Positions 29,264 to 36,071 of a stretch of DNA of 46,457 nucleotides are shown in pieces. Location: assembly GCA_022760335.1 (NCBI GenBank), contig JALEGE010000152.1:1-46457 (forward strand), written 5' to 3'. Below the pieces are notes generated by a model, which saw nothing but the letters and a program-made list of their open reading frames with translations, ran no database searches and was not told the DNA's origin. The stretch's first letter is position 1. Every line of letters begins with the position of its first letter. The DNA comes from Hyphomonadaceae bacterium. Lineage in GTDB: Bacteria; Pseudomonadota; Alphaproteobacteria; Caulobacterales; Hyphomonadaceae. A program made the translations under genes and the position numbers.

Positions 29264-29695
29264 CTAAGCCACGGCTGCGATGGCGGAAGGGGACAGGGCG
29301 GCATTCCCGTCGCTGCCCAAGAGGTCTCCAAGATGACCGAAGCCGGTAATCGCGTAAGCCTCCTCGGCAAAGCCGGCGATGGCCGGAAGCATAAGGCCGA
29401 TCTCCTTGTGGGAGAGGTCACACCCTTGAAGGCGCTCGATCATCCCGCAGGCAACCGCGCGGCGCCCGCCTGGTGTCTGTTCGATCAGACGAGCAATCGT
29501 GCCGGTTGGCGCGCCGATATCGGAGCCGATCTTGGCTGACAGCGTGCGCGCGCCTGGCAGACGTTTGAAAAGTGCATCTGCAAAGGGAGAGCCTTGTCGA
29601 TCCGCTGCGTTCATGATGATGCCGAGCGCTTCGCGGGCGCGTGCCTGCGTAATCCCGGTTTCAGTAGCAACGTGACGAATAAGGTCTCTCAACAT
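29264..29695 (-). CDS. hypothetical helical protein
   Basis: A 143-residue soluble protein from the ATG at 29695, preceded by AAGGAGA. It is all-helical in character (MLRDLIRHVATETGITQARAREALGIIMNAADRQGSPFADALFKRLPG...), with a Gly/Ala-rich end (GFGHLGDLLGSDGNAALSPSAIAAVA). It has features of small DUF2267/DUF2780-like proteins, but I cannot assign it. It is divergent from the TIR protein gene with a 237-bp gap, so co-regulation is possible. Confidence 0.65.
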   Translation of the reverse strand: MLRDLIRHVATETGITQARAREALGIIMNAADRQGSPFADALFKRLPGARTLSAKIGSDIGAPTGTIARLIEQTPGGRRAVACGMIERLQGCDLSHKEIGLMLPAIAGFAEEAYAITGFGHLGDLLGSDGNAALSPSAIAAVA

Positions 29696-29862
29696 GTGTG
29701 TCTCCTTCTTAATATTGGCGATGGAGACATTAACCATGATCTCGGTTACTCGTTTCTTTCGACTTGACCGGCAAGAACAGGGTGATTCGGCAGGAAGTAT
29801 GAATCCGCGTTAGTACCGGGTGAATTTTCTGCCTGATTTTGTTAAGCTTCAGGGACCAATTG

Positions 29863-29932: not shown

Positions 29933-31936
29933 ATGAGCGAGAACGCCGACACCAGTAAAAGTGCTTCCGAAGATCAGTATGATGTCTTTCTGGCTTATGC
30001 TCATGGCGATGAGGACATTGCCAGCAGTCTTCAGGCCGAACTGAACCGCATGCAGCCAGACTTGCGTGTCTGGTGTGAGAAGACGAGCCTGGATGTCGGC
30101 GATGCTTTCAACCAGACTGTCGATGAAGCCATTGCCGGGTGCGGTGTGGTGCTGGCGGTGTGGACCCCGCATGCGGCCCGGTCGGGGGCTTTCATGCTGG
30201 AGGCACGCCGCGCGCTGACCCTTCGCAAGCCCCTGGTGAATCTGCTGGCAGGGGCTCAGCATGCTTCGCTTGTGCCGCCGCTCTCGAAATACGCCACCTT
30301 CCCAATTGACCATGTCGTCGCCAGCGCTGGCCGTTCGGAAGGATGGTTGCCGCCGCTGAAGCCCGGCAAGGATACGCTCGATGAAGAGCTGAAGCCGGTC
30401 CTCGCCAAGGTCAATGACTTCCTGCGCATGATCGGAAAGCCGGCCTCGGAGGTTTCCGATAGCCTGATTTCCGGCCTCTTGGGGGCTGCCGGCCAGCCGC
30501 ATTCGACCGAGTTCGAGGCGATGCTGAAATCCATCGCGCCGGGCGATCCTGCCACCGCGCTGGAAGTGCTTTTGCTCTCTGGTTACAGCGAGGCGGAAAT
30601 CAACACGCTGATCAGTCCACAGCGGGCCAGAATTGCCGACCCAAGCGGCACGCGGCCATCCTGGGGAGCCTGGCAGGTGCGCCCGCATGTTCGCAAGCTT
30701 GCCCCAGTTCATAAAGATAACGGCGCGATCTATGCGGCCGGTGGCTTTGTGGCGGCGGCTCTCGGCGCGGCCGCGCTCTGGTTCATGGGCTCGACCTTGT
30801 CGGCTGGCAGCGCTGGCTCCGCGGGAACAGCGACGACACCAGCCGATAGCGGCGCGCAAGACACTGCGGAAACCACATCCAATCTCAGTCCGGCCACGGC
30901 CCGGCCAGACATACAGCCAACGCCGCTCCCCGATTGTACGCTCAATTCTGATGGCTCAATCACCGGGGCCGAGTGCCGCTTGACCACGGATATCGCGCCA
31001 CGTCCGGTCGAGCCTGTGGAGACCGACAGCGCCGATACCGCCGAGCCTGTCCCAAGCCTGCGCGGCTGTATTATCCGCCTGGACGGCTCGATCCAGAACA
31101 CGCCCTGCCGTCTGGCGGCGCCTTATGCGATCTCTGATCGCGATGAGGACGAGCTTGCTGAATGCGTGGTTACCGATGAAGGTGCGATTACCGAAGTCCC
31201 CTGCCGTCTGATCGGCAGTTTTGAAGCACCTGATCCTGTGGAAGTGGAGGTGCCAGCCGAGACCCCGCCAGAGCGTCTGTGCATTACAAATCCCGACGGC
31301 TCAATCACCGATGTTCCGTGCATGATGGCTAGCCCAACCTCCGCGCCTGAGCGAATTGAAGTGCCGGGTGAAACCATTGTCGAGATGGAAGAGCTGCCGG
31401 TTTGCGACACCGACGCGGCCGGCGCGCGCTTGTCACCCGGCTGCAAGCTGGACGAGGAAATCAATCTCGCCCACGCGATCTGCGATGAGGATTACTCCAA
31501 TCTGCCCTGTACCCTGACAACGGCCCCCACGCGGCTGACCTCTGATGACACGGCAAGGCCGGCCACCAGCCAGACCACATCTACGCCGGCTGAACCCGCT
31601 CCGATGACACCGATTGAGATGCCCGACACGCTGGAGCCGTGCGAAGACGCTATTGTCGCGCCTTGTCAGCTTACTGTTTCCAAGGCCGGCCTGTTCACCT
31701 TGTCGGAAATTGCCCAGTCCTTTTATGGCGACCGGGAGGCTTGGTGCATGGTGTATCGCGCCAACAAACCGACGTTCGGCTCGCGCAATGAGACGCGTGT
31801 TAGCGATGATCCCAACTGCATCTTTGCTAGCGATGTGCTGGACCTTCCCGAAACGCAGGAGAGCTCAGCCTATAATCTCAATGGTTGCCCGCCAGCGAAA
31901 CAGCGCAATCGCTGTTTCGTTCCGATTGAGCGCTAG
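29933..31936 (+). CDS. TIR-domain transmembrane protein with periplasmic Cys-pair repeats and LysM-like end
   Basis: A 667-residue protein from the ATG at 29933 (GGAGAG upstream; a GTG one codon before is possible). The TIR domain spans about 16-105: YDVFLAYAHGDEDIASSLQAEL, then WTPHAARSGAFMLEARRAL, in which Glu90 sits at the position of the TIR NADase catalytic Glu (Ser + 6). A helical linker (about 190-235) leads to one membrane helix (about 264-286, AIYAAGGFVAAALGAAALWFM). The outer part has seven Cys pairs: five with C-x12-C spacing (335/348, 379/392, 411/424, 450/463, 491/504) around a DGSIT core, then 517/526 and 570/578. A LysM-like segment (about 583-640) ends it. The topology is cytoplasmic TIR and periplasmic repeats. 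TIR proteins can degrade NAD+ or act as adaptors; which applies here is unknown. Confidence 0.75.
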   Translation: MSENADTSKSASEDQYDVFLAYAHGDEDIASSLQAELNRMQPDLRVWCEKTSLDVGDAFNQTVDEAIAGCGVVLAVWTPHAARSGAFMLEARRALTLRKPLVNLLAGAQHASLVPPLSKYATFPIDHVVASAGRSEGWLPPLKPGKDTLDEELKPVLAKVNDFLRMIGKPASEVSDSLISGLLGAAGQPHSTEFEAMLKSIAPGDPATALEVLLLSGYSEAEINTLISPQRARIADPSGTRPSWGAWQVRPHVRKLAPVHKDNGAIYAAGGFVAAALGAAALWFMGSTLSAGSAGSAGTATTPADSGAQDTAETTSNLSPATARPDIQPTPLPDCTLNSDGSITGAECRLTTDIAPRPVEPVETDSADTAEPVPSLRGCIIRLDGSIQNTPCRLAAPYAISDRDEDELAECVVTDEGAITEVPCRLIGSFEAPDPVEVEVPAETPPERLCITNPDGSITDVPCMMASPTSAPERIEVPGETIVEMEELPVCDTDAAGARLSPGCKLDEEINLAHAICDEDYSNLPCTLTTAPTRLTSDDTARPATSQTTSTPAEPAPMTPIEMPDTLEPCEDAIVAPCQLTVSKAGLFTLSEIAQSFYGDREAWCMVYRANKPTFGSRNETRVSDDPNCIFASDVLDLPETQESSAYNLNGCPPAKQRNRCFVPIER

Positions 31937-35211: not shown

Positions 35212-35315
35212 GCTTTCGCCTCCCGCATTTCAGCTACTTTAGGCAGCCAGACGGGCCATCGCAATGATTCCTTTATTGGGCGTACGGATTGCTTTTTTGT
35301 CACAGGAAGATTGAG

Positions 35316-36071
35316 ATGCCCTTTGTGGCGGAGGATCGGAAAGTGACGGCAGAGCGCGATCTGATTGCGCATGGCAAAGCCTGTCAGGCGGCAAAGACCC
35401 GGCTCGAACTCGAGGCGGTTTCGATCAGGTTTTTCTACGCCCGTGGCCTGCGCCAGATGAGCTATTATCATGTCTCTCCGCTTGGCGTGGAACCGGATGG
35501 AGAGTCCGTCCCGATCTATACCTATGGTTTCCCAGAGGCATGGGTGAAGCGCTATATTGAGGAGAAGCTCTACGAGGTTGATCCGGTCCCGCGGCACAGC
35601 AAGGCGTGCACGCGGCCGTTCCGCTGGCTCGATCTTGTTGGCTCTCCGGAGCTTTCCAATAGTGAACGCAAATTCATGCAACTGGTGCAGGATGAAGGGC
35701 TTGGAAATGGCTGGGCGATCCCTGTGTTCGGGCCGCATGGACGCAATGGGTATTGCGGACTCAGCTATGGGCCAAAAGCAGAAACTCCGATGAATGATGA
35801 AGTCATCTTGCTGTCTCTGGCGTGCCACCAATTCCATTGGCGGTATTGCGAACTGCATCCCCTGTCGACAGAGTCGGCCGGTCTTTCGAAACGGGAGGCG
35901 CAAACCCTAAGATTGCTTGCCAGGGGGTTGAGTAATGCTCAGGTGGCCAAAATCATGGAAATAAGTCCCTCTACCGTGGACACAAATGTGCGTCGTTGTT
36001 TCCAGAAATTGGGCGTGAACGATCGGGTCTCGGCCGTTCTGAGGGGGATTGTAGAGGGCGTCTACGACTAG
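35316..36071 (+). CDS. LuxR-family regulator with autoinducer-binding domain
   Basis: A 251-residue regulator. The N-terminal autoinducer domain retains the usual ligand-pocket pattern: FPEAWVKRYIEEKLYEVDPVPRHSKACTRPFRW contains the W-x3-Y, D-P and W residues of the LuxR/TraR family, and GNGWAIPVFG has the conserved Gly. The C-terminal GerE helix-turn-helix (about 190-245, LSKREAQTLRLLARGLSNAQVAKIMEISPSTVDTNVRRCFQKLGV) is intact. An AGGAAG site precedes the ATG at 35316. No luxI synthase is in the window, so it is a LuxR solo or its partner is elsewhere. Confidence 0.9.
   Translation: MPFVAEDRKVTAERDLIAHGKACQAAKTRLELEAVSIRFFYARGLRQMSYYHVSPLGVEPDGESVPIYTYGFPEAWVKRYIEEKLYEVDPVPRHSKACTRPFRWLDLVGSPELSNSERKFMQLVQDEGLGNGWAIPVFGPHGRNGYCGLSYGPKAETPMNDEVILLSLACHQFHWRYCELHPLSTESAGLSKREAQTLRLLARGLSNAQVAKIMEISPSTVDTNVRRCFQKLGVNDRVSAVLRGIVEGVYD

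Follow-up and report, generated by a model that had tools for sequence, protein, structure and literature searches.

A stretch of 46,457 nucleotides from Hyphomonadaceae bacterium (the window) encodes a 667-residue protein in which a TIR domain, a middle region, one membrane helix, a Cys-rich stalk and a LysM-like end follow one another. At the level of sequence, the domain order, the membrane helix, the LysM homology and the pairing of the cysteines are established. An initial annotation had proposed this layout of TIR, membrane helix, seven Cys pairs and LysM-like end, and it is confirmed by the sequence and by conservation in orthologs. The protein may be a single-gene sensor-switch of the inner membrane, a TIR protein tethered to the wall, with defence or damage response as its likeliest role. 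A probability of roughly 0.45 is given to this reading.

Table 1. Positions of the gene, its parts, its neighbour and two related genes (window coordinates unless a locus is named).
Feature	Position	Strand	Remarks
Whole gene	29933-31936	+	667 aa; single-gene unit flanked by a small conserved gene (divergent) and dxs (convergent)
TIR_2 domain, residues 17-105	29981-30247	+	Pfam TIR_2; predicted cytoplasmic
Glu90	30200-30202	+	Aligned with the catalytic Glu in NADase TIRs; unchanged in all three orthologs
Middle region, residues 110-262	30260-30718	+	Predicted mostly helical; genus-specific; no assigned fold
Single membrane helix, residues 264-286	30722-30790	+	Predicted N-in/C-out; small residues abundant
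Stalk, residues 335-578	30935-31666	+	Predicted periplasmic; seven Cys pairs
Divergent LysM, residues 589-641	31697-31855	+	Insertion with Cys pair 605/629
Tail Cys pair C652/C661	31886-31915	+	Also present in the G002 ortholog
Divergent neighbour, small conserved protein	29264-29737	-	No Pfam or NCBIfam match
TIR-TM-OmpA gene	L159:2293-3315 = G000:C6:9792-10811	+	OmpA E=1.1e-11; source genome
TIR-TM-repeat-OmpA gene	L031:1504-3363 (G009:C7:198337)	+	801-aa open frame; another genus of the family

Layout and orthologs of the protein

Relatives of the whole protein are found only in two other searched genomes of the same genus. The ortholog from Hyphomonadaceae bacterium UBA5336 (G002; L025:10187-12118) is about 63-64% identical. 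It is full length, with 643 residues, and its existence excludes a chance or frameshifted reading frame. The ortholog from GSL.Bin11 (G001) is 37% identical, and its gene is cut by a contig end. A GTG lies immediately 5' of the ATG start codon of the gene in the window.

The membrane helix can be recognized by hydropathy in all three orthologs. The best hydrophobic segment starts at residues 266-268 in each of them (means 1.73, 1.76 and 1.91), and the next best reaches at most 1.19. This single helix, conserved in position, corresponds to residues 264-286, which had been put forward as membrane-spanning. It sits within a stretch of 30-42 residues free of charged residues and is the most conserved part of the protein, with 85% identity to the UBA5336 ortholog. 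In the 667-residue protein and its closer ortholog, net charge is positive before the helix and negative after it, which argues for an N-inside, C-outside orientation; this is clear in two of the three orthologs, the charge difference in the third being only 1. The predicted topology is that of a single-pass, type II (N-in/C-out) protein of the inner membrane.

Two Cys precede the helix and 18 follow it, the latter in nine consecutive pairs. Seven pairs lie before the LysM region, as had been claimed, with a further pair in the LysM insertion and another in the tail. Five of the seven stalk pairs are C-x12-C units of the type C-x4-DGSIT-x2-PC-[RKM]-[LM]. The spacing of 12 residues is exact in all five, and the centre D/E-G-S/A-I recurs in four. 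The UBA5336 ortholog has four such units and 16 outer Cys rather than 18. Since it is one unit short, Cys pairs are added or removed a whole unit at a time. Thr, Pro, Ala and acidic residues abound in the spacers, and residues 290-560 contain 48 acidic and 14 basic residues. These features fit disulfide-closed hairpins on an extended acidic stalk; disulfides are favoured by the even numbers of outer Cys and by the gain or loss of whole units.

The LysM-like end was the weak point of the proposed layout. Pfam LysM (PF01476) has no match in the protein at E up to 5, and a PDB sequence profile search with the C-terminal end found nothing. Yet the claim is borne out by profile-profile alignment. 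Using hhalign, residues 589-641 match LysM domains with a probability of 95.8 and E=8e-9. The alignment score is 47.3, whereas 200 column shuffles reach no more than 17.1, the reversed sequence 15.9 and other segments of the protein 7-9 (at most 9.2). Homology of these residues to LysM is accepted on this profile evidence. AlphaFold models, one for the full protein and one for its C-terminus (mean pLDDT 33 and 37, shallow alignment), are unusable as a test of the fold; the C-terminal model has only two helices at the place expected for the beta-alpha-alpha-beta fold of LysM.

A profile of the last 124 residues gives five weak non-self matches in 150 genomes of the order. Four of the five are the LysM halves of BON-LysM (Kbp-like) proteins. 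One match to the LysM region, L071, sits in a helicase-like frame and was rejected. The LysM of Kbp/YgaU is the closest sequence to the C-terminal domain, although Kbp/YgaU itself is small and soluble and lacks a TIR domain, a membrane helix and a Cys stalk.

The TIR domain and the NADase question

The N-terminal TIR domain is supported by Pfam TIR_2 (PF13676), which matches residues 18-103 with E=4.1e-11 and 43.9 bits, against a cut-off of 28. Both orthologs also pass this cut-off (36.5 and 41.8 bits), and the earlier assignment holds. Solved TIR chains in the PDB, including AbTir, match the three-ortholog profile with E=7e-4 to 6e-3.

Residues important for AbTir were mapped through a HMMER alignment and a family alignment, with the alpha-C position read from the profile alignment. 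A Glu had been noted at the NADase position, and rightly so: E90 aligns with E208 of AbTir and with the alpha-C Glu of other TIRs. Of those among 80 other TIRs from related genomes that have a residue there, all but one have Glu. The counterparts of AbTir S140, R151, D167 and W204 are A21, S31, E49 and A86, so that four of the five AbTir activity residues tested are changed. Each of S140A, R151A, D167A and W204A inhibits AbTir (PMC11374754). The first and third of these positions are nearly invariant in other TIR sequences of related genomes, with Ser at position 21 in 77/80 and Asp at position 49 in 76/80. The UBA5336 ortholog retains Arg at the R151 counterpart, and the GSL.Bin11 ortholog retains both this Arg and the Ser. 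The alpha-C Trp is more variable; it is present in 37 of the 81 family TIRs, orthologs among them, that can be read at this position. In AbTir the Trp is necessary for the cyclic ADPR product, and TcpC does not need it (PMC11374754).

The protein thus resembles the NADase TIRs AbTir and TcpC in its TIR fold, as judged by profile, and in its alpha-C Glu. It differs from them in the changed equivalents of S140, R151, D167 and W204, and in its predicted membrane anchor and wall-facing end. NADase activity, for which the Glu had been taken as a sign, is doubtful because four residues needed in AbTir are absent, and about 80 family TIRs show hardly any variation at two of these positions; the Glu is there, but the case is weaker than it alone suggests. 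Since the Trp needed for cyclic ADPR in AbTir is Ala here, cyclic-ADPR signalling is unlikely. Judged by these residues, hydrolysis of NAD+ is uncertain and a structural role is possible.

A separate TIR-TM protein of the source genome (L138:880-1779, minus strand; G000:C25:5024-5290) has Ala in place of the alpha-C Glu and is likely a non-enzymatic TIR.

Distribution, locus and rate of change

The gene is confined to one genus. A single-sequence search of named genomes found no relative of the protein, and an alignment-based search of them recovered only the two genus members. The protein type is absent from about 100 other genomes of the family. A search of 384 other genomes of the class found nothing that matches the part after the TIR domain. 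For the middle region, which is 71% identical to that of the UBA5336 ortholog, neither these 384 nor 150 genomes of the order yielded a convincing relative. A match to the profile of the middle region and membrane helix (L047, E=1.5e-4) was put down to chance; the matching protein is a polytopic membrane protein resembling O-antigen ligases. A plasmid search found no relative of the TIR gene.

The surroundings are unchanged in UBA5336, where CoxE-like, RtcB, the small conserved gene, dxs and ispA occur in the same order. The small gene is conserved across the family, with 47-61% identity outside the genus. At least 15 of the 18 other family genomes searched have it, and outside the genus none of the flanking genes tested (TIR, dxs and RtcB) lies within 1.5 kb of it. 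On these grounds it was rejected as a member of the system, to which it probably does not belong. PADLOC gave no full-length match for the protein and only partial TIR matches, the best being to PDC-S66 over residues 5-68 (E=8e-9). No defence genes or partners were found among the ten window proteins scanned. Elsewhere in the window (35289-36071, plus strand) lies a LuxR-type regulator with an autoinducer-binding domain. An RTX-like calcium-binding repeat protein, cut by the contig end, is encoded upstream of the GSL.Bin11 ortholog (L026:1-1965, plus strand).

Between the source genome and UBA5336 the TIR gene has dN 0.29 and dN/dS 0.23. Five neighbours are 90-97% identical, with dN 0.017-0.061 and dN/dS 0.04-0.08. 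At sites where a change alters the amino acid, the TIR gene evolves about 5-17 times faster than they do. There is no need to invoke replacement by a distant allele, because the TIR part has diverged at synonymous sites (0.92) to an extent similar to dxs, ispA and the small gene (0.75-0.81). Another TIR pair of the two genomes (best available match, orthology not checked) is equally divergent, with 62% identity and dN/dS 0.35, so fast change is a property of some TIR genes here. Two further pairs, likewise best matches of unchecked orthology, are less divergent (92% and 78%). The fast evolution fits conflict, and it also fits relaxed constraint.

A recurring design and its possible function

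Membrane TIR proteins are common in the family. The source genome has 20 TIR_2 domains, and 95 of the 105 family genomes have at least one. On G026:C16, G026:C9 and G077:C2 several TIR_2 genes are clustered per contig, which suggests tandem expansion. In 46 of 80 TIR proteins from fetched loci the TIR domain is followed by one or more membrane helices, and in 37 by exactly one. A Pfam scan of 37 TIR-TM proteins found at least four with OmpA, and others with Sel1, TPR, WD40 or FGE-sulfatase; the counts of outer-end domains are lower bounds, as some genes are cut by locus ends. A PG_binding_1 domain in L169 was suspected by eye and is unsupported by Pfam.

An example of an exchanged end can be found in the source genome, where a TIR-TM-OmpA gene (Table 1) directly follows genes for an M23 peptidase and a bactofilin. 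Such a pair has a role in cell shape in Hyphomonas (PMC10945521). In UBA5336 (L162) the same M23 and bactofilin genes, at 90-91% identity, are followed by a TIR that is 81% identical, in which a Sel1-like repeat end (read by eye) replaces OmpA. The outer end has apparently been swapped between two species at a fixed locus.

The family thus makes repeated use of a TIR-TM cassette whose end can be exchanged, and the 667-residue protein is one version of it. The initial annotation could not place the layout in a known system. It is placeable, as TIR-TM proteins with exchangeable ends are common in the family and OmpA ends recur. The protein shares with the family's single-TM TIR_2 proteins the order of TIR, linker, one membrane helix and outer module. 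It differs from them in its middle region, Cys-unit stalk and LysM-like end, which have no relatives outside the genus. The two TIR-TM-OmpA proteins in Table 1 are alike in having a TIR domain predicted to be cytoplasmic, one membrane helix and a C-terminal domain of peptidoglycan-binding type, but they have OmpA instead of LysM and lack the Cys-unit stalk. A survey of TIR domains describes bacterial groups that mix many architectures, with no mention of LysM, OmpA or peptidoglycan (PMC7075850), and no description of the TIR-TM-Cys stalk-LysM layout was found in the open-access literature. A TIR-TM protein with an outer module is thus a known modular kind, and the LysM-ended version with a Cys stalk is a new variant.

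The sensor-switch would work as follows. The Cys pairs would form disulfides that stiffen the stalk, and the LysM-like end would hold peptidoglycan. If the wall were damaged or displaced, for instance during phage entry, the tension on the protein or its clustering would change. This change would travel through the membrane helix, in which small residues abound, and the helical middle region to the TIR domains. These would then assemble, and the output may be either a residual NAD+-consuming activity through Glu90 or a purely structural signal. A link from the wall to a cytoplasmic TIR had already been suggested. It is a fair inference because both the sequence and its conservation in orthologs support the topology and the order of domains; the binding and the coupling themselves are inferred. 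Zorya offers an analogue in function: defence depends on its outer peptidoglycan-binding domain, which is proposed to sense wall damage (PMC11890865). ZorAB likewise combines an inner-membrane position, such an outer domain and a cytoplasmic defence output (PMC11890865), but it has no sequence relation to the protein and is a MotAB-like, ion-driven complex with nuclease partners.

Defence or damage response is the likeliest role because the gene is genus-specific, stand-alone and fast-evolving at a fixed chromosomal position; the lack of defence genes among the scanned window proteins and of a plasmid relative speaks against it. The output itself may be non-enzymatic. The TIR domain could be an assembly or adapter module, with the protein clustering at wall sites and recruiting partners such as other TIR proteins of the cell. 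This is a real possibility, if on the doubtful side. It draws on A21 and E49 at near-invariant positions, on the Ala at the alpha-C Trp position, on the inhibiting AbTir substitutions and on the 20 TIR_2 domains that could interact. The loss of four of five AbTir residues also weakens the sensor-switch. On the other hand, a change from Asp to Glu is conservative, and the Trp is dispensable in TcpC and missing from many family TIRs. E90 is kept although the third ortholog shares only about 37% of residues, which favours the sensor-switch.

The outer end could also have another task. As a disulfide-stabilised cap it might recognize another ligand or a protein and not peptidoglycan, as with the LysM of the potassium-binding protein Kbp. 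The LysM of Kbp-like proteins is not known to bind the wall. The divergence of the domain, its nearness to Kbp-like LysM halves, its insertion with an extra Cys pair and its being missed by Pfam are consistent with such a cap and count against the sensor-switch, as does the poor quality of the structure models. However, the domain follows the membrane helix on the predicted periplasmic side, and LysM domains in that place usually bind peptidoglycan. Wall-binding OmpA ends on other TIR-TM proteins of the family favour a wall tether. A cap is rather unlikely, and the end may bind peptidoglycan. Still less probable is a housekeeping envelope protein, a wall tether or morphogenesis factor in which a TIR domain has been put to a use other than defence. 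Its housekeeping neighbours, fixed position and vertical inheritance within the genus would suit this, as would the paralog behind the cell-shape pair (PMC10945521). But the gene belongs to a single genus, is absent from about 100 other family genomes and evolves fast, and the bactofilin-linked paralog swaps its end between species, unlike a core morphogenesis gene.

By analogy, the family's proteins may hint at a receptor-like class in Alphaproteobacteria, a proposal that is on balance rather unlikely. Membrane TIRs with interchangeable outer ends (LysM, OmpA and others) would act as sensors of the wall or envelope by which a cytoplasmic TIR output is switched, a logic analogous to that of Toll-like receptors and wall-sensing Zorya. 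Bacterial TIR proteins have been studied mostly as soluble enzymes triggered from inside the cell. If the sensor-switch reading is true, a wall-held TIR would be an outside-facing trigger that can be tested with one gene. The fixed locus beside a wall-hydrolase operon, with the same TIR and a swapped end, would be a natural experiment on the role of the outer end.
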